Of a stretch of 64,000 nt of DNA, positions 32,851-47,401 are shown piece after piece. The position numbers and the translations under genes are program-made. This stretch comes from Mycoplana azooxidifex (lineage in GTDB: Bacteria > Pseudomonadota > Alphaproteobacteria > Rhizobiales > Rhizobiaceae). The stretch spans positions 248,001 through 312,000 of the forward strand of contig NZ_JACIEE010000007.1 of NCBI RefSeq assembly GCF_014196765.1. Reading direction: 5' to 3'. Position 1 is the first letter of the stretch. Each line of letters starts with the position of its first letter. The notes below the pieces were generated by a model. It was not told where the DNA came from. It made no database searches and saw only the letters and a program-made list of their open reading frames with translations.

Positions 32851-33762
32851 TCAATGCTTGAAGCAATTTTCGCGATGCCAGCGGAGAAAATGAGGATGCG
32901 GCCTTTCGAAAGGCCGCGATGGGACGATGGCCATTCCGGTCTTGTTGATCAACCCCCAGATGCTCTCCGGGTCATTGACCTGCCGTGAGACCAGGATATT
33001 CAGCTCGTCCGAAAGGCTGATGAGGCCGCGGTCAAACATCCAGTGAGCCGTGCCCGACAGCGCAATGCCATTGGTGAGAATATCGGGTCCGCTTGCCTCG
33101 ACAGGCCGAATATGGGCAGCGTCGACTTCCGCGCGCCCGCCGCCATTTATGAGCTTTAACCCGGTGATCGCACACCTCTTGTCGTAGGCCTGCAAGACAA
33201 GCCGTCGAAACAACCGGTCACGAACGATCCGCGACGAGAGCTGTGTGACGCGGTCGCGCTCCTGCTCAAATAGGAACGGCGCCTGAGCTCCATTTTCAAA
33301 CCCAGCAGCAGGGAGTGTAGCTCCCCACTCTTCCGTTCGCGGCAACTCAGGCTCATCCTCATCCAAGCCAATCGACACGATACGATTGAAATCTGCCACG
33401 GAAATGGGCCTTACAGCCGCCTGCGCCCTGCCAGAAATCCGCCCCTCATCATTCAAGACGCCGCGCTCTATGACCCCCTCTGGTCCAGTGAAAGGAACGG
33501 GATTGATGAAGTCGAGATAGCTGCCTGGATCTATCAGCGCCAGATGCATCCCTGGGGCCTTTGGGTCCGGGATAACCCGATCGACTTTGGCCACAGCAAA
33601 ATAGCCGCGTGTCGCCGCAACCTTGCGCGGCTCATAGTAAATAATCCAGTCTCCGACACAGGCTTGCACACGGCCGAGATACTGGCTCGGAAATTGATAC
33701 TGTTCCGCTGGACTGTCGTCGTAGATCGAATCTGACCGATGAATAAAAACCCCGAATCCCAT
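32851..33762 (-). CDS. HNH endonuclease with PUA/EVE-like N-terminal domain
   Basis: A 303-residue protein. The C-terminal HNH_2-type nuclease domain shows CAITGLKL, DAAHIRPVEASGPD and NGIALSGTAHWMFDRG, keeping the His-Asn-His core. The N-terminal ~110 residues (VGDWIIYYEPRK; RGYFAVAKVDRVI) have the look of an EVE/PUA-like domain, which in EVE-HNH enzymes reads modified cytosine. The gene is visibly less GC-rich than its neighbours, stands alone between two operons and has no methylase beside it, all consistent with a horizontally acquired modification-dependent restriction enzyme. The domain assignment of the N-terminus is inference. Confidence 0.75.
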   Translation of the reverse strand: MGFGVFIHRSDSIYDDSPAEQYQFPSQYLGRVQACVGDWIIYYEPRKVAATRGYFAVAKVDRVIPDPKAPGMHLALIDPGSYLDFINPVPFTGPEGVIERGVLNDEGRISGRAQAAVRPISVADFNRIVSIGLDEDEPELPRTEEWGATLPAAGFENGAQAPFLFEQERDRVTQLSSRIVRDRLFRRLVLQAYDKRCAITGLKLINGGGRAEVDAAHIRPVEASGPDILTNGIALSGTAHWMFDRGLISLSDELNILVSRQVNDPESIWGLINKTGMAIVPSRPFERPHPHFLRWHRENCFKH

Positions 33763-33854: not shown

Positions 33855-34781
33855 TCATACGCTGGCTTCGAGACGCGCCCCTTCGAAGCGCTCGATCATG
33901 GCGACGATCGATCCTGCGTCGGGCATCAGGCAGGCGGCCGTTGCCACTGCGTCGGCTATTGCCGCCGTGGGGGCGGAGACCGAGATTGCGCGCCAGCGAG
34001 CGGGTCCCGGCCTCCCGGTGGCGGGGTCGAGAATATGGCCGTCTTGTCCGGCCTGGTCGAAGGTCGTGCCGAGGGGCGCGGAGGTGGCGAGCGCGCGCTG
34101 GCGCAGCGCCAGGCGTTCGCCCGTTTCCAGTCGTACTGGCCACCCCTCTCCGGATATGCCGCCGCCCTCCGGTCTGCCGCCGAGTGCGCGGAACTCTCCG
34201 GTATCGATCAGGATGTCGGTCAACCCTTCGGCTTCCAAAAGCGTGGCGACCCGGTCGGCGACATAGCCTTGACCGATGCCGTTCAGCGTCAGGGCCATGC
34301 CGGGCTGAAGGGCGATCACCGCGGCATCGAGTTCCACCTTGTACCAGCCGGTCCTGCGCCGTACCTCTTCGATCGCCTCCGCATCGGGCCGCCCCCCGTT
34401 TGCAGCGGATTGCGCCCAGAGCGCCCAGAGCGACTGCACGGTCGGATCGAACCGTCCGCCGCTAGCCCGATGCACGGCGCCCGCCAGCGACAGGCACTCC
34501 AACAGCTCGAAGGGCGGGGCTGTGAGATGCCCATCACGGTTCAGCCGCGAGAGCGCGCTGTCCGGGCGGTAGAGGCTGAGGATATCCTCCAGCCGGCCGA
34601 TTTCGGCCATGACCCGCGCGGCGATGGCCTCGCCATCGGGATGGTCGAGGCGGATCGAGGCGCGCGCACCGAGCGCCTGCCCGGTCCAGAGGCGGGCAGT
34701 TCCAGTATCGGCACGGGCGGCGGCGGGCAGTGCGGCCAGAACCGCGGAAATCGCGATCAGGCGGCGGCGGGTGATCGTCAT
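33855..34781 (-). CDS. nosX: FAD:protein FMN transferase NosX (ApbE family)
   Basis: A 308-residue ApbE-type flavinyl transferase, exported by a twin-arginine signal (ITRRRLIAIS...ARAD). NosX attaches FMN covalently to NosR, which passes electrons to N2O reductase. Motifs typical of ApbE (LTLNGIGQGYVADRVA, DTGEFRALG) are visible. It is the last gene of nosRZDFYLX, three bases after nosL. Full length with no defect. Confidence 0.92.
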   Translation of the reverse strand: MTITRRRLIAISAVLAALPAAARADTGTARLWTGQALGARASIRLDHPDGEAIAARVMAEIGRLEDILSLYRPDSALSRLNRDGHLTAPPFELLECLSLAGAVHRASGGRFDPTVQSLWALWAQSAANGGRPDAEAIEEVRRRTGWYKVELDAAVIALQPGMALTLNGIGQGYVADRVATLLEAEGLTDILIDTGEFRALGGRPEGGGISGEGWPVRLETGERLALRQRALATSAPLGTTFDQAGQDGHILDPATGRPGPARWRAISVSAPTAAIADAVATAACLMPDAGSIVAMIERFEGARLEASV

Positions 34782-34784
34782 GGC

Positions 34785-35366
34785 TCAGCCTCCGGCTGGA
34801 TGGGACAGGGTGTGCAGGCGGTCGCGAAAGTCCTCGTCGTCAGCCTCGCGGCCTTCGCCGGTCTCGACTGGCGCGAGGACCATGTCGTCGGCGATATCCG
34901 AGAGCGCCAAGACATGGCCGCCCTCGGCGAGCGCGAAAGCATCGGCCCGCTCCCGGCTGGAAAACGGCACGGCTTCCGGCGCTCCCATGCCGCCCTCTCG
35001 CGCCGAGCCGACAACATAGAAGGCCGCCTCGGCGGCGATCCAGTTGCCCTTGCCCGGCTGGTCCCACGTCGCCCCCGCAGCACCCATGTCATTGACATAA
35101 ACGGCGAGGATCGGGGCTACCTGCTCGGGTGCGCGGGTATAGGCAATGACGTCGCGCACCTGGCTAAAGAACAGCGGAGCGGGGTAGCCATCCAGAAAGA
35201 CCTGGGCCTTGGGACCGGGATGCTCCAGAAGGTTCATCTGGCAGTAATGGCCGAGGGTGTCGGGCGTCATCTCCTGCGGTGCGATGTTGCGGCTCACCTC
35301 TTCCTTGCAGGCGGAAAGGAGCGCGAGCGCGGCAAGGAGCAAAGCGTGGCGGAGGCGTTTCCTCAT
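34785..35366 (-). CDS. nosL: Copper chaperone lipoprotein NosL
   Basis: A 193-residue lipoprotein (LSAC lipobox after LLLAALALL) that delivers Cu(I) for NosZ CuZ assembly. The conserved segment is YCQMNLLEHPGPKAQVFLDG, where the Cys and Met are the expected copper ligands. WDQPGKGNWIAAEAAFYV and the later PFSSRERADAFA match the NosL family. The C-terminus carries an acidic tail. The start ATG overlaps the nosY stop by four bases, in the standard nos order. Confidence 0.92.
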   Translation of the reverse strand: MRKRLRHALLLAALALLSACKEEVSRNIAPQEMTPDTLGHYCQMNLLEHPGPKAQVFLDGYPAPLFFSQVRDVIAYTRAPEQVAPILAVYVNDMGAAGATWDQPGKGNWIAAEAAFYVVGSAREGGMGAPEAVPFSSRERADAFALAEGGHVLALSDIADDMVLAPVETGEGREADDEDFRDRLHTLSHPAGG

Positions 35367-36184
35367 GGCGTGACCTTCCGGAAAGCGGCGACGGCAAGGG
35401 CGATGGCGGCGAGCGGCCAGAGGAGGAGCGAGGCGGCCGATTGCCAGAGCGGGATCGCCCCCGCCGCCCCGCCGATGCCGCCGGCGGCCGCGACTGCCTC
35501 GGCCGCCGAGAGATTGAAGACGCGGAAGGCATCGGCCGGATTGGCGAGCAGGGCCACCGGCAGCGCCTGCGTGGTGAAGGCCCCGCCGCCGTCGGTGACG
35601 ATCAGCGCCAGCAAGGCGAGATCGTAGAGGACCACCGCCACCAGCCAAAGGGCTATGGCCAGCCCCGCCGCCCCGGAAGGCCGCTTCGCCATCGAGGAGA
35701 GCGCATAACCCGCACCGAGAAAGGTCGCGCCGAGCAGGACCGAGGACCAGATCAGGCGCCAAAGCGACGCCAGGCCTTTGAGCGCGCCGGGATCGGACCC
35801 CACCGCCACCAGCGCTGCCGCGCCATAGCCGAGAGCGGCCGCAAGACCGAGGATGGCGAGATGCGCCAGAAGCTTGCCGAGCAGGATCTGCAGGCGCGAG
35901 ACCGGATAGGTGAGCAACAGCGGCAGCGTGCCGCGCTCCACCTCGCCCGCCACCGCATCGAAGCTCATCAGCAGCGCCAGGAGCGGCACCAGATAGACCG
36001 CAAGCGAAGTAAGCGAGGCGACCGTCACCGACAACCGGTCCACGCCGACATCACCGGTCGGCGCCGAGCCGGCGGCGGCCAGCACCAGCGCGAAGAGCAC
36101 CATCATGCCGGTGGCGATGGAGACCCAGCGGTTGCGGAGCGCGATGCGGAACTCGCAGACCGCAGTGGCAAGGATGCGGCTCAT
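35363..36184 (-). CDS. nosY: ABC transporter permease NosY
   Basis: A 273-residue integral membrane protein with about six TM helices (for example WVSIATGMMVLFALVLAAAG; SLAVYLVPLLALLMSFDAV). NosY forms the membrane part of the NosDFY complex that supplies sulfur or copper for the CuZ centre of N2O reductase. It overlaps both nosF and nosL by four bases. The EVERGTLPLLLTYP segment is the typical ABC-2 permease coupling region. Confidence 0.93.
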   Translation of the reverse strand: MSRILATAVCEFRIALRNRWVSIATGMMVLFALVLAAAGSAPTGDVGVDRLSVTVASLTSLAVYLVPLLALLMSFDAVAGEVERGTLPLLLTYPVSRLQILLGKLLAHLAILGLAAALGYGAAALVAVGSDPGALKGLASLWRLIWSSVLLGATFLGAGYALSSMAKRPSGAAGLAIALWLVAVVLYDLALLALIVTDGGGAFTTQALPVALLANPADAFRVFNLSAAEAVAAAGGIGGAAGAIPLWQSAASLLLWPLAAIALAVAAFRKVTP

Positions 36185-37107
36185 TGCCCGTCCCTCCGAC
36201 TGAAATGGCTGTAGATGTCCTCGAGGCTCGGCGGGATCACGTCGAGGTCGGCGACCGCCGACCCGAGCATGGTGATGCGGGCAAGGAGCGGCAGCTTTTC
36301 CGCCTGCCTGCAGGCGAGACGCAGGAGTCCGTCTCCGTCTTGCGAACCTTCGGGAAAAGCCGCCGCCAGCCGTGCTGCATATCCGGGCGCTGGGCGGACC
36401 AGAAGGCTGACGGGGAGTGCTGCGCGGGCGCGAAGATCCGCGAGCGTGCCTTCCGCCACCAGTTCCCCACCGGAAAGGATGAGGATGCGGTCGGTGCGGG
36501 CCTCCACCTCGGTCAGCACGTGGGAGGAGAGCAGGATTGCGGTTCCCTCGGCGGCAAGACCGTCGAGCAGGTCGTAGAAGTCGCGCCGCGACACCGGGTC
36601 GAGGCCGGACGTCGGCTCGTCCAGCACCAGGAGACGGGGACGGCCGATCAGCGTCTGGGCCAGCCCCACGCGCTGGCGCATGCCCTTGGAATAGGTGCCG
36701 ATCCGCCGCCGCGCGGCAGGGGTCAGGCCCACGCGCGCCAGTAGCTCCATGGCCTGGCGCGGATCTTCGCCCCGCAGCGAAAGATAGTGGCGGAGCTGCT
36801 CCTCGCCGGTGAGCGCCGGATGGAAGGCGACGTTTTCCGGCAGATAGGCAACGCGCGTCCGTGCTGCGGGCGAGCCGGGATGCGCGCCGCAGACCGAAAC
36901 CTCGCCGCTGTCGAACGGGATGAGGCCGAGGACGATCTTCATCATCGTCGATTTGCCCGCGCCGTTGTGGCCCAGCAATGCCGCGCGCTTTCCGGCCTCC
37001 AGCGTCAACGAGACCTGCTTCAGCGCCTCGACGGCCTGAATGCGCTGTCTTCCCGCACTTCCCGGAAATGCCTTAGTGAGCCGCGAGATCGTCAGGGTCG
37101 GTGTCAT
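36181..37107 (-). CDS. nosF: ABC ATPase NosF
   Basis: A 308-residue ABC ATPase: Walker A GHNGAGKST, signature YSKGMRQRVGLAQ and Walker B LLVLDEPTSGLDP. It energises NosDFY during maturation of the tetranuclear copper site. The start MTPTLTISRL is preceded by AAGGAAA; it lies inside the 3' end of nosD, giving a 35-base overlap. A longer frame upstream has no family-like residues. Confidence 0.93.
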   Translation of the reverse strand: MTPTLTISRLTKAFPGSAGRQRIQAVEALKQVSLTLEAGKRAALLGHNGAGKSTMMKIVLGLIPFDSGEVSVCGAHPGSPAARTRVAYLPENVAFHPALTGEEQLRHYLSLRGEDPRQAMELLARVGLTPAARRRIGTYSKGMRQRVGLAQTLIGRPRLLVLDEPTSGLDPVSRRDFYDLLDGLAAEGTAILLSSHVLTEVEARTDRILILSGGELVAEGTLADLRARAALPVSLLVRPAPGYAARLAAAFPEGSQDGDGLLRLACRQAEKLPLLARITMLGSAVADLDVIPPSLEDIYSHFSRRDGQ

Positions 37108-38401
37108 CGTTGTTTCCTTCGGTCCAACGGCCGGCGGCCTCGGCCTCATGGGCGAGGATTTCAGGCGGGACGGATATCGTCAGGGGGCGCATCAGCGGCG
37201 CGCTGTCGCGCACGCCTCCGGGCAGCGTTGCGGGAAAGTCCCGCTGGCTCCAGCGCACGAGTTGCACGGCGGGCGAGCCGATCAGCAGACTTGCTGCCGG
37301 CTGCGACCAGAGGATCTGGTCCATCAGGTCGTTGGGGCGGTAGAAGCTGTCGGCGATGCCGTCGCCGTTGAGGTCGAAGGCCGGGTGGTCGGACCAGAAA
37401 TTACCCCTGCCCTCATGGCTCCATTCCATGTTGCGGGTGCCGACATATCTCACCTGCTCGCGATTGGCGATGAAGGCATTGCCGGTCAAGACGTTCTTCT
37501 CCGAGCCGGCGGTGAAATGAATGCCGATGCCGCAGCCTTCGAAACGGTTGTCCCAGATGAGATTCTTGTGGGCATTGTAGATGAAGAGGCATTTCTTCGT
37601 GCCCCCTCGCACCAGGTTGCCGGTGACGTCGGCGTTGTTGGCATAGTTCAGCATCAGCCCGTGCTCGCGGTCGCCGAGGCTGAGATTGTTCAGGATCTTC
37701 GCCCGGTTGGAGAACATGATGGCGAAGCCAAGATGGTTCCCGATCGAGACATTGCCGGAGACCTCGGTGTTGCGTGTGTACATGAAGTGCACGGCAAAGC
37801 GCAGGTCGCGCATGACGTTGCCGCGGTAGACGCTGTCGGCACTGGCATTGGAAAAGATACCGTCGCGGCCGTAGCGGATGACATTGCCTTCCAGCAGCGT
37901 GCCGGGACTGTTCCAGACATAGATGCCGTTGCCGCGTTCGTTCATGCGCGGGCTGTTCGTGCCGACGATCTCGTTTGCTACGACAGCGGCGTCGCGGCCG
38001 CCATGCACGTCGATGCCGTGCATGTTGCCGGTGACGAGCAGCCCCTCGATGCGGGCGCGGTCGGCGCCCTGAAGGATTTTCACGCCTGCGTCGAGTTCCT
38101 GGTTCACGCGGCCCGACCCGGTGACGGTAAAGCCCGTCAAGGTCACGTCCGGTGCGGAAATCGTCACCACGCTGCCGAGGCCCTGCCCGTCCACCACTGC
38201 CCCGCGCGGGCCGGTGATGGCGAGCGGCCGGTCGACGGTGACGGGGCCGGCATAGGCCCCGTCACTCAGTTTCAGCACATCGCCGGGTTCAGCCCCGGCG
38301 ACGGCAGCCGCGAGGCTGCCCTCTCCCGGCATGACCTCGCGCTCCGCCGCGGCAAGCGGCGAGGCGAGAAGAAGGCCGATCAAAAGGGCGAGCAGGCGCA
38401 T
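37073..38401 (-). CDS. nosD: Periplasmic copper-site maturation protein NosD
   Basis: A 442-residue secreted parallel beta-helix protein. The Sec signal (MRLLALLIGLLLASPLAAAE) is followed by repeated CASH/PbH1-type strands (GIDVHGGRDAAVVANEIVGT; EVSGNVSIGNHLGFAI). It works with NosF and NosY to build the CuZ centre of N2O reductase. It starts three bases after the nosZ stop, in the canonical order Z-D-F-Y-L-X. Full length; no frame defect. Confidence 0.94.
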   Translation of the reverse strand: MRLLALLIGLLLASPLAAAEREVMPGEGSLAAAVAGAEPGDVLKLSDGAYAGPVTVDRPLAITGPRGAVVDGQGLGSVVTISAPDVTLTGFTVTGSGRVNQELDAGVKILQGADRARIEGLLVTGNMHGIDVHGGRDAAVVANEIVGTNSPRMNERGNGIYVWNSPGTLLEGNVIRYGRDGIFSNASADSVYRGNVMRDLRFAVHFMYTRNTEVSGNVSIGNHLGFAIMFSNRAKILNNLSLGDREHGLMLNYANNADVTGNLVRGGTKKCLFIYNAHKNLIWDNRFEGCGIGIHFTAGSEKNVLTGNAFIANREQVRYVGTRNMEWSHEGRGNFWSDHPAFDLNGDGIADSFYRPNDLMDQILWSQPAASLLIGSPAVQLVRWSQRDFPATLPGGVRDSAPLMRPLTISVPPEILAHEAEAAGRWTEGNNDDTDPDDLAAH

Positions 38402-38404
38402 GGA

Positions 38405-40328
38405 TCAGGCGTCCTTCGGTTCCACGAACATGCGGCCGCGCATTTCCATGTGCAGGGCATGGCAGAACCACTGGCAATAGTACCAGTAGACACCGGGATT
38501 GGCCGCGACGAAGGTGACCGAGCTCGTCTGCTGCGGCCCGATCTCCATCGCCACGCCATGGTTGCCCATGGTGAAGCCGTGCGTCAGGTCGTCGATCTCG
38601 TCGAGGTTGGTGACGATCACCGTGACCTCGTCGCCTTCCTTCACCGTGAAGCTCTCGTGGCTGAAGCTCGGCGCGACCGAGGTCATGTAGACCCGCACCT
38701 TGTTGCCATCGCGGATCACGGCATCGGCCCACTCGTCGATATTGACGCCATCGGCCTCGGCCTGCTTGCGCGTTTCGGCCCAGAGCGGATCGTTCCGGTC
38801 CCAAACCGAGCGGATGTTCGGCAGGATCGAGGGGGCGACGGCGATCGCGTCATGCGGCTCGGCGAAATTCGGACCGTCATGCACCAGCACCATCTTGTCG
38901 CCCGAAATGTCGATGAGCTGATCGTTTTCCGGCTTCAGCGGACCGACGTTCAGAAACCGGTCCTTGGAGAACTTGCACAGGCACACCAGCCAGTCATTGG
39001 AGGCGTCCAGCGTCTCGCCCATTACCGTCTTCAGGTGGCCGGGCTGGTACTGGACGTCCAGCTTGTCCTTGATCGGGTTGATCTTTTCGCCGGCATAGGC
39101 GCGGATGGCCTCGTCGATGTTCCACTTCACCACCTGGCTGTCGAGGAACAGCGACGTGTAGGCGTTGCCGCGCCCGTCGAAGGCAGTGTGCAGCGGGCCG
39201 AGGCCCAGTTCCGGCTCCGCCACCACGGCGCTGCGCGGTTCGGCATCGTCGTAGAACAGGGCGTCGAACTTCGTCACGTCCAGCACGGTGACGGTGGGCG
39301 AAAGCTTGCCGGCGATGCACAGGTGCTTCTTGTCCGGCGCCATGTTGCAGCCGTGCGGGTTGTTGGCGATCGGGATGTAGCGGGTGAAGAGGGACTTGGC
39401 CTCCTTGCGGCCGTCCAGCACCTTGACGCCGTTGATCTCCTCATACTGTCCCGCTGCGATGGCCTTCTCGATCTCGGCGATGTTGAAGACGACGACGTGG
39501 TCCATCTCGGACTTGGTCATCTCACAGCGTCATCCCCATTTCGGAGTTGTAGCTGGTCGAAAACGCCCACTTGCCCTCGTAGTCGGCTTCGCAATTGTCG
39601 AGATTGCCCGAAACCCTCACCTGCCAGGCCACGTCCCACTTATCGGCATCGACGGCGGTGAAGATGTTCACGTAGGTCGACACGTCCTTCATGGTCGAGC
39701 CGTCATTGGCGAGCGGCGCCTCGTCCTCGCCGTTGCAGAACACGTAGTTCGAACGCGGCCATTTCTGCGGGCGCATGCCGTGGATTCCCTTGGCATTGGG
39801 AATTTCCAGGATGGCGTCGGTCTTCATCACGTCGCAACGCACGCGCCCCACGCGAGTGTTGGCCTTGTCGTTCATGAACAGGAAGCGACCGTCGTACTTG
39901 CCCTCGGTGAAGGACATGTGGACGTGGTGCAGGTCGCCGTTGTCGTGAATCTTCTTGCCGTTGGCGGCAAGCTGCTTCTTCGTCTTCTCCGACATTGTCC
40001 GCTGGTGGATGCGGATCGATTCGTTGGTCTGCCCCCAGCCGGTGGCCGAGCAACGGTTGAACACCGGCACCCGCATTAGTTCGCGCATCGAGGGAATGCC
40101 GAGGATGCGCATCTCGCCGGTCTGGCCCGAGGACCAGAAGCCGTAGTAGTCGTCCAGCTTGCCGGGCGAGACCGAACCGTCGCCCCCGGCTGCACGGGCC
40201 GGCGTGGCCAGGCCCGCAGCGCCGAGGCCGAGTGCCGCCGGCCCCATCGTGCCGGCCAGAACGGCAGTGCCTGCCGTGGCGCTGAAGAGAGCACGCCGGC
40301 TCAGCCCCTTGTTGTCCTTCGATTCCAT
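38405..40328 (-). pseudogene. nosZ: Nitrous oxide reductase NosZ, interrupted by a frameshift
   Basis: NosZ reduces N2O to N2 in the periplasm. The Tat signal ([13 protein letters not shown]) and the first ~268 residues, including the CuZ His pair in DLHHVHMS, end at a TGA (39522-39524) right after YNSEMGMTL. The protein then resumes in another frame at [13 protein letters not shown] and continues to the CuA site ([21 protein letters not shown]). Families read MTL-x-EMT here, so one base is extra or two are missing. TGAGATG would allow re-initiation, but the second chain would lack a Tat signal. Both halves are otherwise well conserved, so the lesion is recent or a sequencing error. Confidence 0.85.
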
Positions 40329-40347: not shown

Positions 40348-42504
40348 TTAAACCTTGGCTGCAGGTTGGTGGATCGGGGCGCCGCCAGGGCTCGCCGCCA
40401 GCTTTGCGCGCGATTTCATCTTCTTCATCACGACGGGGCAGACGGTTTCGGACTGGTAGAGCACCTGGCAGTGCAGACAGTTGATGCACTCGTTCGGATT
40501 GATCTCGCCGGTGCGGTGGATCGCCTGCACCGGGCACTGGTTGGAGCAGGTCTGGCAGGGGTTTCCGCATTCGTGGTAGCGCTTGAGCCAGTCGAACATG
40601 CGGATGCGCGCGGGGATCGCGAGCGCGGCGCCCAGCGGGCAGAGGTAGCGGCAATAGAACCGCTCGACGAAGAGCCCGGCGACCAGCAGGGCTACGGCAT
40701 AGGCCACGAACGGCCAGGCGCGGATGAACTTCAGGATGATCGCCGTCTTGAACGGCTCGATCTCGGCCAGGTGCTCGGCCTGCTCGACGCTGATCAGGGA
40801 GGTCCCGAAGAGACCGAGGAAAATCATGTACTTGATCGGCCAGAGCCGCTCGTGCAGGCCCCAGGGCAGCGTCCATTGCGGGATGCGCAGCTTGCGCGCG
40901 ATCTGGTTGGTCAGTTCCTGCAGGGCACCGAAGGGGCAGAGCCAGCCGCAATAGGCTCCCCGCCCCCAGAACAGAAGCGCGGCGGCGACGGCGAACCACA
41001 GGATGAAGGTCAGCGGATCGAGCAGGAACGCCTGCCAGCTGAAGCCGTTCACGAAGCTGCCGAACAATGCCATCAGGTTGACGACGGAGAGCTGCGCATT
41101 GGCGTACCAGCCGAGGAAGACCAGCGTCGCCGTCAGGAAGGACATGCGGAAGATAGTGAAGCCCCGCGCGCTCCTGACCGCATAGCTCTGGAAGAAGAAT
41201 ACCCCCGTCAATACGACAAGCATGGACGCCAGAACCGCGATCTTCAGCTTCGAGTCCTGCCAGATGCGCCGCCACAAGTCGGTCTGCGCGGTCCCTTCGT
41301 CGCGCTCGGCGACGGCCGCGACCTCCTTAGCCGGCGAAGCGACGGCACGCAGGTATTTCTGCGGCAGCTGGTAGGCGAGATCGAATGTGTGGAAGACCTT
41401 CTCGATCGGCCCGACCTCGCGATGCGCCAGAAGCTGGATGCGGAAGGGCTTTGTCGGATCGAAGCCGAGGCCGGCGGGAATGCGGAACAGGTCCATCTCG
41501 GAGAATTCCGGCGCGCCGGCAAGGGCGATGCCCCCGAGGCGGCGATGGTCGCGGTCGCGGAAGCGCACGGAAACATCGTCCTGGATCAGCACGATGCGGT
41601 CGAAGATGCCGCCGCGCACATAGCCGGACCCCTTGAAGGAATAGAGACCGCGTCCAAACAGGGCGATGGCGTTATCGCCCTCACCCAGCCAACCGCGCAG
41701 GTTGGCGTCCCCGGCCTTGCCGAGCACCGCTGCGCCAATGGAGGGCACCGAGACCAGCGCCGCCTGCATGTCGATGAAGGTGGTTTGCGGCGCTTCCGCA
41801 ATGGCGCGCTCGCGGGTGCGCTCGTCCGGATGGTCGGCGAAAGCGGCATTGACCTGCGCCACATCGAGCGACAGCCGGCGCAACGTACCGTCACCGTCCG
41901 CCTCGGCCCAGTCGGCCGGCGCGGCGGCGGCAGGATTGACCTCGAAACGAGGGCCGGCATTGTCCGTTTCCGGAGCCAGTCCGCCAAGACCGAGCGCTCG
42001 TGCGACCTTCAGCCCGGAACGGACGATCGAATCGTCGATCACCATCACCGTCACCGTCGCGCCCGAGATGATATCCACCTCATGCGCTGTGCCACCGGAC
42101 TTCGCCTCTGCGAGGAGATCGAGGCCGGCATAGCCGGCGACCAGCGCCTTGACCTTTGCCTCCGGAATACCGATCAGGACGATGGGCTCGGAGTGCTTGA
42201 CCAGCCGGACACCGACGATCTTCGCATCCGGATCCACCGCCACGAGCGTATGGATCGGCTTGCCGGAATAGCCGGTCGTTCCCACGAAATCCGAGGTCAT
42301 GAAGACCCAGGCCGCCGTCTTTCCACCCTTCAGCACCGGGGCCACCGCCAGATCGTCGCGCACCGGGCCGAAACCTTCGGCGCCCGGCACGATATCCGAG
42401 GCGGTCACGGTGGGCAGATACTCCTGCAGCACGGTGCGCGCGCTGGCGGACGCCGTGAAGCACAGGCTTGCGCAGAGCAGAAGGAAGAGGCGGACAAGCT
42501 TCAT
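40348..42504 (-). CDS. nosR: NosR, membrane electron donor/regulator for N2O reductase
   Basis: A 718-residue membrane flavo-iron-sulfur protein. A Sec signal is followed by the periplasmic FMN-binding domain with SGATVT (covalent FMN Thr). Several TM helices follow, with two CxxxCP motifs ([18 protein letters not shown]), and then polyferredoxin cysteines ([30 protein letters not shown]). The start ATG was chosen because it overlaps a 61-codon leader ORF as ATGA; an upstream TTG is possible. First full gene of the nos operon, 19 bases before nosZ. Confidence 0.93.
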
Positions 42505-42686
42505 TGCAGGACGTTCCCGCAAATCGCCGCCGGAACATTGGAGCGCCTGCGCGACGGGCGGGGCGCCGACAGGAGAGGCTGCCTGATCCTGAACGGCACC
42601 GCCACGCTGCGATCGGAAAAAGCACCGCGCAACAGGCCCAGGCCACTGCCGATTCCAAGATACCGAGAGAATTCCCTACCCGTCAT
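42501..42686 (-). CDS. 61-codon leader ORF before nosR, copy of the HutW N-terminus
   Basis: The predicted peptide MTGREFSRYLGIGSG... LRGAFSDRSVAVPF lines up without gaps with the HutW N-terminus MMGGEFSRYFANGNG... LRDAFSRRSAVMPF for ~40 residues, then diverges into an Arg/Pro-rich tail. The DNA match continues upstream to the FNR-type box, with identical spacing (85 bases from box to ATG). Its TGA overlaps the nosR ATG as ATGA, so it is placed to couple translation of nosR. It lacks the radical-SAM cysteines. It could be a decayed fragment captured with its promoter, or a functioning leader; translation is not shown. Confidence 0.55.
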   Translation of the reverse strand: MTGREFSRYLGIGSGLGLLRGAFSDRSVAVPFRIRQPLLSAPRPSRRRSNVPAAICGNVLQ

Positions 42687-42982: not shown

Positions 42983-44593
42983 TCATGGCCGCACCTCGAT
43001 TGCTTCCTGCAGGCGCAGGAGTTCAAAGTCGCCGATCAGGACGTCGATGCGCACCTGCCATTGACCGGCCAGGGGGATGATGACGTCCGAAGCCCGCCAG
43101 GTTCCGTCCGTCTGCAATTCGGCTTTCCTGCGCATCGGTTCGACGCCCGCCTGCGCGTTCGACAAGACGAACGTGACTTCCTTGGCATCGAGCGGGCTGA
43201 AGTGGGAGGAAAGGATGACGGCCGAGATTTCGACCGGCCCGGCACGGCCCGGAGCGACCGTGACCTCCGCCATCGCCTTGTCGGAATGGATGTGGATCGT
43301 GGCCGGCTGCGCGGCCGCGACGACAAGCGCACGCGGCGGCGGCGTGAACCGCCACGCCGAGGCGACCGCGAAAATCGCAACGACGATCAGGGCCTCGACG
43401 ACGATCGCGCGGAAGAGCCGACGCACGGCCTTCCGATCTCCCTGCGCAGCCGGCCCGGTGAGCTTCCAGCGGTTGACGGCGACGAGGCCGAAAAGAACCG
43501 CAAGCAATCCGATCTTCGCCAGAAGCACGTTGCCGTAGGCGGTCGAAAGGAGTGCGGCAGGGTCGCGAACCTGGATGGCGGCCAGCAGCAGGCCGGCCAA
43601 TGCGAGAAGGGCGACGCAAAGCGGGATCAGCCGGGAAAAGCGGCCGAGCGCGTGCCCACCGGCGTCCCCGTCGCGTCGCAGGGCGGACGCCAGCGGCAGA
43701 AGGGCGCCGACCCAGATCGCGATCGTCACCGCATGAACGAACACCGCCGGTCGCGTCAGCCATTGCGGAGCAGCGGCGCTCGCGTGTCCGCTCAAGGCCA
43801 GTGCAGCGCTCCCGGCGACGAGCGCGACAAGGGATGCTGTGCGGTTCAGCACCGCCGAGCCGGAGCGCCCCGCGACGACGGCAAGACAGAAGGCCGCCGA
43901 CAGGACCGCGACGGTCGGGCCGAAGCTTGTCGCGAAGCCGGCCTTCCACACGGCCGGATCGAAGAGGCCGGCGAGCGGCGCGCCGAGGGCATCGAGGCCC
44001 TGCAGGCTGAGGGAAAGGATAGTCGCGACGAGGCCGAGCAACGTTGCCGTCCCGACGAGCCGGGGACCACCGCCTTTACAGGGGATCAGCCAGCGCGTGG
44101 CGAAGACGCCGCCGATACCGAAGAAAAGACCGACATACATCGCGACCTTGGCAAGCCACAGCGCGGAGCGCACCGGCCAATCGATCGCCTCTGTTCCCGC
44201 CTGCGGCGCGCTGCCTGGCGCGCCGATCGAAAAGATCGTCGACCCCGCGACAGGATGCCCGTCCTCCGACACGACGCGCCAGGTCAGCACATGGGTTCCC
44301 GGCCCGAGACCGTCGGGCGTCGGGATCTCCAGCGTGGTGTCGCGAAGGACGAACTCGTCGAGCGACCTCGCCTGCCCGTCAGGCAGGAGGAGCTTCAGCA
44401 CCAGCGGCGAAACCGGCTCGCTGAAGGACAGGTACAGGATTTTCGGCGGTGCGCCCACGACCGCCCCGTCCGGCGGAACCGCCCCCGTCAGCGACGCATG
44501 CGCCATCGCCATCCCGGTCAGGCAGCACCAGAGGATGCCGGCCAGGAATGCCAGGACGCCGGGTCGACCAAAGCTGCGTTTGCGCACGAGCAC
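42983..44593 (-). CDS. Copper resistance CopC-CopD fusion protein
   Basis: A 536-residue protein. The signal peptide is followed by a CopC-like domain whose mature N-terminus would be His (AMA then HASLTGAVPPDG), the known Cu(II) ligand, with a second His in EDGHPVAGS. A CopD-type eight-TM domain (ALWLAKVAMYVGLFFGIGG; HAVTIAIWVGALLPLASAL) and a C-terminal YtkA-like periplasmic domain (~residues 440-536) follow. The GTG start was chosen behind CGGAG. It probably brings copper across the inner membrane. It lies next to nos, whose NosZ needs copper. Confidence 0.85.
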   Translation of the reverse strand: MLVRKRSFGRPGVLAFLAGILWCCLTGMAMAHASLTGAVPPDGAVVGAPPKILYLSFSEPVSPLVLKLLLPDGQARSLDEFVLRDTTLEIPTPDGLGPGTHVLTWRVVSEDGHPVAGSTIFSIGAPGSAPQAGTEAIDWPVRSALWLAKVAMYVGLFFGIGGVFATRWLIPCKGGGPRLVGTATLLGLVATILSLSLQGLDALGAPLAGLFDPAVWKAGFATSFGPTVAVLSAAFCLAVVAGRSGSAVLNRTASLVALVAGSAALALSGHASAAAPQWLTRPAVFVHAVTIAIWVGALLPLASALRRDGDAGGHALGRFSRLIPLCVALLALAGLLLAAIQVRDPAALLSTAYGNVLLAKIGLLAVLFGLVAVNRWKLTGPAAQGDRKAVRRLFRAIVVEALIVVAIFAVASAWRFTPPPRALVVAAAQPATIHIHSDKAMAEVTVAPGRAGPVEISAVILSSHFSPLDAKEVTFVLSNAQAGVEPMRRKAELQTDGTWRASDVIIPLAGQWQVRIDVLIGDFELLRLQEAIEVRP

Positions 44594-44652
44594 GAACAAT
44601 CTCCGAATGACAGGAATGGCCGGCGCCCAGAATAGCGCCGGCCGACTGGATG

Positions 44653-45183
44653 TTAGTGACCGGCCACAGCCTCGATCAGCTTTACGCCCGGTGCGGGAAG
44701 CTCGAGATCGTCCGCCGACTGGCCTTCGGCCGGAATCTCGATCCAGCGCTCGGCCATGCCGTCCGGGCATTCCTGCACGACCGGGAAATGAAGCGTTTCG
44801 CCCGCCTTCAGATCCTTCGTCAGATAGGCCCGAAGCACGAACTCGTCATATTCGTCGTCGGCGAGGTTGCCGCCACTCCAGACGACCTCCTTCACCCCTT
44901 CGCTGGTCGGCGTGCCGTAGTAGTCATAGGAATTCGCGTAAGCGCCCTTGACCTTCTCCAGCGTCCAGCCAGCCTTCGGCTGCGGCTTGACCGCGATCAC
45001 GCCTTCGGGGATCTGCACGCGCACCGTGAGCGTCGGCTTGCCTTCGCACCCGTGCGGCACCTGGAAGATCGCCCGGTATGTCGAACCGACCGGCGCTTCC
45101 TTCAGTTGCAGCGAAACATGGGCGAAGGCAGTTCCCGCGCCGAGCGCGAGGGCGGCAACGGTGGCAAATGTTCTCTTAAACAT
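44653..45183 (-). CDS. YcnI-like copper-binding protein (DUF1775)
   Basis: A 176-residue secreted protein: a signal peptide ending AFA leaves His at the mature N-terminus (HVSLQLKEAP), and GWTLEK supplies the Trp of the family's mono-His brace copper site. The C-terminus is short with no membrane anchor. It is encoded 59 bases upstream of the CopCD fusion on the same strand, the standard YcnI-YcnJ pairing for copper acquisition. The start at MFKRTFATVA gives a normal signal peptide. Confidence 0.85.
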   Translation of the reverse strand: MFKRTFATVAALALGAGTAFAHVSLQLKEAPVGSTYRAIFQVPHGCEGKPTLTVRVQIPEGVIAVKPQPKAGWTLEKVKGAYANSYDYYGTPTSEGVKEVVWSGGNLADDEYDEFVLRAYLTKDLKAGETLHFPVVQECPDGMAERWIEIPAEGQSADDLELPAPGVKLIEAVAGH

Positions 45184-45404
45184 GGTCAGTCTCCAATGGA
45201 GCCGGTCATCCTGCCGGCAAGGTTCGGAATGGGAAAAGCAAAGTGATTGCGGGATCGCGGGGCGCTGCATGGCGCGGTCGGCGACAGGTCAGATGGCGCT
45301 CGGGGTGGGAGGAAGCCCTGCGGCTGCCGCCTTCCCCGCCTGCAGACGCAGTCGTGCGGGGGACCATCGTGTCATGTCGGTCGAATCAAGTGCCGGCCCG
45401 GCGA

Positions 45405-45977: not shown

Positions 45978-46163
45978 ACTTCTCATATTTTCTTCCGATA
46001 GGTTCCGCCCTCGAAATGGTCAGGAATTCGGGCGGGACCGGCAGATCGATGATGGGTGGGGAGTTCTCGCGGTATTTCGCGAACGGCAACGGCTTGAATC
46101 CGCTGCGGGATGCGTTTTCCCGTCGCAGCGCGGTGATGCCGTTCAGGGGCAGGCAGCGTCTCC
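45964..46163 (+). repeat. Duplicated FNR promoter plus HutW 5' coding segment (hutW copy)
   Basis: Partner of 42572-42771. It continues into a full hutW gene and so is the more likely source copy. Confidence 0.8.
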
Positions 46164-47401
46164 CCGCGGGCGACTTCCAGTCCACTTGGCAGCAGATCAT
46201 CTCGGCCCTCTGCCCTCCGGGAAAGCGGCTGGCCTATATCCACGTTCCCTTCTGCGCCAATCACTGCCTCTTCTGCGGCTTCTACCGCAATGCCTATATT
46301 CCTGACGCAGGGGCGGAATATGCCGCCCTTGTCGTGGAGGAAATCCGGCGCGAGGCGTCATCGCCTGCTCTGCGCAACAGTCCCATCCATGCGGTCTATC
46401 TCGGCGGCGGCACGCCGACCGCGCTCAGCGCGAAGGAACTTTCCCGTATCCTTTCCACGGTCAGGTCCGAGCTTCCGCTCGCCGCCGACTGCGAGATCAC
46501 CGTCGAGGGACGCATCATCCACTTCGATTCCGAAAAGATCGATACGTGCCTGGAAGCCGGTGCGAACCGATTTTCGATCGGCGTCCAGAGCTTCGATACG
46601 ACCGTCCGCCGCAGGCAGGGTCGTCGCGCCAGCCGCGAGGAGGCCGTTGGCTTTCTGGAAGACCTGCGCGACCGCGACCGCGCCGCCCTTGTGATCGATC
46701 TCCTCTACGGCTTGCCTGGCCAGACGCTGGAGGTCTGGCAGCAGGATTTGCACACCGCCGCAGCACTCGGCCCGGACGGCATCGACCTCTACGGGTTGAA
46801 CCTCATTCCCGGCACCCCGCTTTCGACAGCCATTGCGGCAGGGAAATTCCCCGCCGCTCCCGGCCTTGCGGACATCGGCGGCTTCTATGAGGCCGGCGCA
46901 GCGTTCTTCCGGCGCCGGAACTGGCGGCAGATCAGCAACAACCATTGGGGCCGCACGACGCGCGAGAGAAACCTCTACAACCTCCTCATCAAGGAGGGCG
47001 CGGATTGCATCGCCTTCGGCTCCGGCGCAGGCGGCTCCATCGGCAACGTCAGCTATGCGCTCACCGGCGATCTGGCGCAGTATCGGGAAGACCTTCGCGC
47101 CGGCCGCAAGCCCCTCGGCATCCTCGCCATCTCCGACGCCCTGCAGCCCTTGCGCAACTTCGTCACGGCGAGCTTCGAGGTCGGTCGTCTCGACATGGCG
47201 GCACTTGGCGAACTCGCCGGCGACGAGGCCGCCGCATCCCTCGCGCCTCTTCTGGTCCAATGGGAAGGAGCCGGCCTCCTGTCCTTCATCGACGACATCG
47301 TCGAACTCACCGTCGCGGGACGCTTCTGGTACGCAAACCTGATCTCCGCCTTCCACGACATTCTCGAACACAGGCTGCATTCCGCAGTCGACGCCGCCTG
47401 A
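46049..47401 (+). CDS. hutW: Anaerobic haem-degrading radical SAM protein HutW/ChuW
   Basis: A 450-residue HemN-like radical SAM enzyme. The Fe4S4 motif is CANHCLFC (C69, C73, C76), followed by HemN-family segments GGGTPTALSAKELSRIL and RFSIGVQSFD. ChuW opens haem without oxygen to give anaerobilin. The genes hutX and chuY follow directly, as in the E. coli O157 chuWXY order, which supports this over coproporphyrinogen dehydrogenase. The ATG chosen corresponds exactly to the ATG of the duplicated leader ORF; an earlier in-frame start at 46016 would lie too close to the expected transcript start. Confidence 0.88.
   Translation: MMGGEFSRYFANGNGLNPLRDAFSRRSAVMPFRGRQRLPAGDFQSTWQQIISALCPPGKRLAYIHVPFCANHCLFCGFYRNAYIPDAGAEYAALVVEEIRREASSPALRNSPIHAVYLGGGTPTALSAKELSRILSTVRSELPLAADCEITVEGRIIHFDSEKIDTCLEAGANRFSIGVQSFDTTVRRRQGRRASREEAVGFLEDLRDRDRAALVIDLLYGLPGQTLEVWQQDLHTAAALGPDGIDLYGLNLIPGTPLSTAIAAGKFPAAPGLADIGGFYEAGAAFFRRRNWRQISNNHWGRTTRERNLYNLLIKEGADCIAFGSGAGGSIGNVSYALTGDLAQYREDLRAGRKPLGILAISDALQPLRNFVTASFEVGRLDMAALGELAGDEAAASLAPLLVQWEGAGLLSFIDDIVELTVAGRFWYANLISAFHDILEHRLHSAVDAA

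Follow-up and report, generated by a model that had tools for sequence, protein, structure and literature searches.

A split reading frame in the only nosZ gene of Mycoplana azooxidifex and its likely consequence for N2O reduction

Can a denitrifier whose nosZ is interrupted within an otherwise intact nos operon still reduce nitrous oxide? The question is raised by a stretch of 64,000 nucleotides of the M. azooxidifex assembly (contig NZ_JACIEE010000007.1, positions 248,001 to 312,000; here called the window), in which the gene for nitrous oxide reductase is read in two frames. We consider that nosZ has recently suffered a loss-of-function lesion, leaving a denitrifier that ends at N2O, and put the probability of this reading at about three in four. 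The alternatives weighed against it are an error in the assembly, a working enzyme made of two chains, and ribosomal frameshifting.

The lesion and its setting in the nos operon

Within nosZ, the motif CTG TGA G ATG occupies positions 39527 to 39518 of the minus strand. The TGA closes the frame of the N-terminal half, and the ATG of the C-terminal half sits one base past it. The features of the locus are listed below, with NosZ residues numbered as in the intact protein (641 aa) of Rhizobium sp. GN54.

40348..42522, minus: nosR, intact, 724 aa; 795 bits, below the model's curated cut-off of 1000, and full-length in GN54 at 94%
39522..40328, minus: nosZ N-terminal half, 268 aa; twin-arginine motif, propeller to blade IV, CuZ histidines 134, 135, and 183, Ca2+ ligands Y260 and E263
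39518..39527, minus: lesion, CTG TGA G ATG; a net loss of two bases against relatives, the stop being made here
38405..39520, minus: nosZ C-terminal half, 371 aa; opens at the M271 codon without a signal peptide; remaining propeller, four CuZ histidines, Ca2+ ligands M271, D277, and N324, CuA cupredoxin domain
37073..38401, minus: nosD, intact
36181..37104, minus: nosF (ABC ATPase), intact; start chosen in this analysis within a longer listed ORF (to 37149)
35363..36184, minus: nosY (ABC permease), intact; assigned by operon position
34785..35348, minus: nosL (copper chaperone), intact; start chosen in this analysis within a longer listed ORF (to 35762)
33855..34781, minus: nosX (ApbE-like), intact; named from its position and a weak ApbE match

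DNA alignment with GN54 places a 2-base gap in the window at position 39524; the nearest relatives have two more bases at this site and an open frame. Together with the two frames and the TGA at their join, this gap bears out the original prediction that a frameshift splits nosZ at 39518-39530. Relative to the inferred ancestor, two bases were lost and one changed, or three were lost and one gained, a slightly unusual make-up for a single mutation. Apart from the lesion, no frame-changing gap in the approximately 21.7 kb aligned to GN54 falls well within a conserved gene; by comparison with the ORF positions, the others were placed in intergenic stretches or at the ends of genes. Against the profile of the TAT-dependent NosZ (TIGR04244), the N-terminal half matches positions 2-259 with 406.3 bits and the C-terminal half positions 263-627 of 627 with 668.8 bits, above the cut-off of 625; the match is divided between the two ORFs, with no single protein spanning the entire model.

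The remaining nos genes had been called intact, and their GN54 counterparts agree: those of nosR, nosF, nosY, and nosX are free of stops over the whole length, while the matches of nosL and nosD begin at residues 11 and 20, respectively. Upstream of nosR and on the same (minus) strand, a CopC-CopD-like fusion (42983-44770) and a DUF1775 protein (44653-45270), both also present in GN54, form a copper-related pair beside the operon of a copper enzyme. About 3.5 kb from nosR lies a gene on the plus strand (46016-47401) for a HutW-type radical SAM protein of anaerobic heme use (TIGR04107, 533.7 bits), and at 32851-33762 on the minus strand there is a partial match to a phosphorothioated-DNA-binding restriction endonuclease model (94.1 bits, under the cut-off of 180). 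FNR-like boxes gave no signal in the window, with 13 matches at up to two mismatches compared to a shuffle mean of 10.9.

A lesion read from a draft of 29 contigs might be a sequencing or assembly error over a nosZ that is actually intact in the organism, and truncated nosZ sequences in databases have earlier been attributed to fragmented assemblies (PMC11102522). Against this, the site is neither in a homopolymer nor near a contig end, and two missing bases plus a changed one would be an odd error. The assembly holds no alternative nosZ; a comparison of the 19 other window ORFs with GN54, overlapping antisense ORFs among them, showed no stop and no split match, and the genome's seven COX1-family genes, nirK, and napA are likewise free of internal stops. 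We therefore regard an error as rather unlikely and infer that the organism does carry the lesion.

Relatives and the rest of the pathway

GN54, the nearest relative found, shares 97.4% amino acid identity with the N-terminal half and 97.6% with the C-terminal half. It is probably a different species from the window strain, since the aligned DNA pieces around nosZ are only 87-92% identical. At 106 of 111 scored loci (a figure that includes at least three contigs fetched twice and three loci of a distant type, L029-L031), nosZ lies in one stop-to-stop frame of more than 600 codons; three loci end at contig edges, and the remaining two are the window's own locus. Among 394 sampled genomes of the family, 94 exceeded the clade I nosZ cut-off by profile score, and two more (G110 and G194), with NosZ-like genes below that cut-off, stand outside this count. 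A single frame of at least 611 codons was found in 91 of the 94; in two (G037 and G049) the gene runs off a contig, and the window genome alone has it split within a contig. A lesion common to the relatives, the check that the original prediction had proposed, can thus be rejected: it is absent from all those examined, i.e., the 111 loci and the 394-genome family sample, and by the same token no relative examined keeps the split as it would a functional two-part enzyme. A plasmid collection yielded 63 records with similar DNA, counted irrespective of the nosZ frame.

Within the genus, five other genomes carry nirK, nosD, and an unbroken nosZ. The exception is G001, which is rated 100% complete and has none of nosZ, nirK, and nosD above the family cut-offs; given this genome, denitrification is patchy across the genus. 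Another genome of the genus, G003, carries two complete nosZ copies (G003:C4:386793-387881 and G003:C1:3000969-3002060), each 66% identical to the C-terminal half in the window and each followed by its own nosD. The genus thus contains at least two kinds of nosZ.

The window genome is a 5.88-Mb draft assembly in 29 contigs, rated 100% complete. No second nosZ was found in it, and a compensating copy was accordingly rejected; the broken frame, set against intact orthologues, is that of the only copy in the draft. The genome carries napA and nirK (377-aa ORF), both with open frames, and near them, on contig 2, a 448-aa COX1-family protein adjoins a cytochrome c and a CbbQ/NirQ/NorQ-type ATPase. 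These are probably norB, norC, and norQ, named from their Pfam domains and arrangement because the NCBIfam models named no nor subunit among four proteins of the probable cluster. The earlier expectation that the strain would make N2O without reducing it, which remains a prediction, is strengthened by the single nosZ and by the open napA, nirK, and probable nor cluster.

The site of the cut and the possibility of a two-chain enzyme

All seven CuZ histidines, the CuA-site residues, and the twin-arginine motif are still encoded, although divided over two ORFs. The CuA-site residues lie in the C-terminal half, where all six that we checked are present. The CuZ histidines, transferred from the list in PMC11573801, are 134, 135, and 183 in the N-terminal half and 326, 381, 432, and 493 in the C-terminal half. 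That both halves keep copper ligands, as had been proposed, holds for these seven histidines and six CuA-site residues, with the ligands shared out between the halves.

In an alignment with PDB 1qni, which we take to be the NosZ of M. nauticus, the first four Ca2+ ligands correspond to Y260, E263, M271, and D277 of the GN54 protein, and N324 follows by offset. The alignment maps the cut between L268 and M271, within the loop of propeller blade IV that binds Ca2+, so that the Ca2+ ligands are separated and no strand is broken. In M. nauticus NosZ, Ca2+ is bound by Y257, E260, T268, D274, and N321, and the loop, which runs from strand 2 to strand 3 of blade IV, contacts the cupredoxin domain of the partner protomer and was disordered in a Ca2+-free structure (PMC11573801). 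An AlphaFold model of the intact GN54 protein agrees with such a position, predicting strands at 254-260 and 277-283 with low confidence at 265-269; given its moderate quality (28 sequences; mean pLDDT of 67.4), it served solely for secondary structure near the cut.

Such a position is one argument for a working enzyme of two chains. The C-terminal half could be re-initiated at the ATG by the TGA, pair in the cytoplasm with the Tat-bearing N-terminal half, and be exported folded, after which the Nos accessory proteins would supply the copper. Dimerization of NosZ takes place in the cytoplasm, and it is the folded dimer that is exported (PMC11573801), so a re-initiated C-terminal half could in principle travel with the N-terminal one. 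The original suggestion that the stop with its immediate ATG could allow re-initiation stands as far as the TGA-G-ATG spacing and the anti-SD energy upstream of the C-terminal half (-7.4 kcal/mol, within the range of -6.2 to -11.6 at six other nos starts tested) permit it; re-initiation itself would be possible, to judge by the sequence. Both halves, moreover, look constrained (see below), an observation equally explained by recency. The exact spacing of stop and ATG is rare in simulated lesions, arising in 14 of 7,668 overall and in 14 of the 319 that make a stop themselves. However, broadly suitable geometry is common, the first old-frame ATG falling between -5 and +13 from the new stop in 2,427 of the 7,668 simulated lesions of this class, and the test was devised post hoc; we therefore do not lean on the stop beside the ATG as support. 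The split is absent from all relatives examined, the C-terminal half lacks a signal peptide, and the cut separates the ligands of the Ca2+ clamp. A working two-chain NosZ is thus unlikely, and we give the route outlined here only a very small chance.

Programmed ribosomal frameshifting, which would restore a full-length NosZ, is more doubtful still. The downstream frame stays open and conserved throughout, as that explanation would have it, but inspection of CTG TGA G ATG revealed no slippery site, as neither a +1 nor a -2 slip brings a CUG-reading tRNA to a codon with which it pairs, and the frameshift site is absent from the relatives examined. We rejected it.

Age of the break and its meaning

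Differences between the window and GN54 in nosZ were polarized with nine other relatives. The window lineage had 18 synonymous and 5 nonsynonymous changes and the sister (GN54) lineage 24 and 6 (Fisher p = 1), with a further 33 synonymous and 5 nonsynonymous changes assignable to neither side. Relaxed selection on the window lineage was thus seen in neither half of nosZ. By the same test, p was 1 for nosR, 0.34 for nosF, and 0.07 for nosD, the last running toward fewer nonsynonymous changes on the window side. For an unconstrained gene of the make-up of nosZ, the expected ratio of nonsynonymous to synonymous events is 2.4-3.4. Under a simple Poisson model, the lineage spent at most 19-25% of its time without constraint (95% upper bounds).

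Since nonsynonymous changes are not in excess, three readings fit: a recent break, an artefact, or a continued need for both halves. The substitution counts do not discriminate between these. The absence of relaxed selection is what would be expected of a very recent break; as a dating clue it limits the age, and it fits an assembly error equally well, since a misread intact gene would likewise show neither such an excess nor a second lesion. Apparent constraint on both halves, with their conserved residues, counts against a loss and also fits a working split enzyme. "Pseudogene" is accordingly a provisional label, taken here from the broken frame.

If nosZ was recently lost, as we favor, one small complex lesion, in which a single base stands for a codon's worth of sequence, would have shifted the frame and created a TGA after Leu268. 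The cell would then make a Tat-targeted fragment of 268 residues, unable to form the CuZ site, whose histidines must come from both halves, and at most some signal-less C-terminal half through re-initiation at the ATG beside the stop. In Tat-leader mutants, NosZ is folded, stays in the cytoplasm, and is free of copper, maturation being periplasmic (PMC6530538). The earlier view that active enzyme is unlikely when the C-terminal half lacks a Tat signal fits the behavior of these mutants. Nap, NirK, and Nor would persist, so denitrification should end at N2O. Most likely, then, active NosZ is not made and N2O is the end product.

The event is of a known, ordinary kind, in which a nirK denitrifier loses the final step of the pathway. 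Loss of nos genes is also known from Neisseria. The window NosZ resembles clade I NosZ (best solved match, PDB 2iwf) and the M. nauticus enzyme in sequence and in the positions of the CuZ and Ca2+ ligands (PMC11573801), but those proteins are encoded in one open frame and the window nosZ in two. Rhodanobacter thiooxydans FW510-R12 has the nir, nor, and nos genes found here, a full gene set described with a non-functional nosZ and no N2O reduction (PMC12146267). N2O as the end product was measured there and is predicted here; conversely, the consulted parts of that report name no frameshift, whereas in the window strain the lesion is seen in the sequence. Pseudogulbenkiania NH8B is likewise a denitrifier with broken nosZ sequence, but its nosZ-like pseudogenes are short extra pieces beside a full-length nosZ, while here the sole copy is broken (PMC5017806). 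In a survey that excluded truncated nosZ sequences and those with stops, 70% of nirK organisms were without nosZ (PMC4250227). Their pathway ends at N2O, as predicted here, but no nosZ was counted in them, whereas in the window strain the accessory genes and both halves persist.

No description of this nosZ lesion was found in the consulted portions of PMC5017806, PMC4574385, PMC9270275, PMC13313319, PMC6530538, PMC11573801, PMC4250227, PMC12146267, PMC11102522, and PMC8809349. The phrase "nosZ pseudogene" had no match in a literature search of incomplete coverage, and we make no claim that the lesion is unpublished.

The finding changes no general idea. If the lesion is real, it is a reminder that detection of nosZ by a short marker may not mean a functional nosZ, and it would offer a small test case of the loss of N2O reduction. 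The strain would be a natural denitrifier ending at N2O, a greenhouse gas, caught soon after losing the last step and with the accessory operon still in place.
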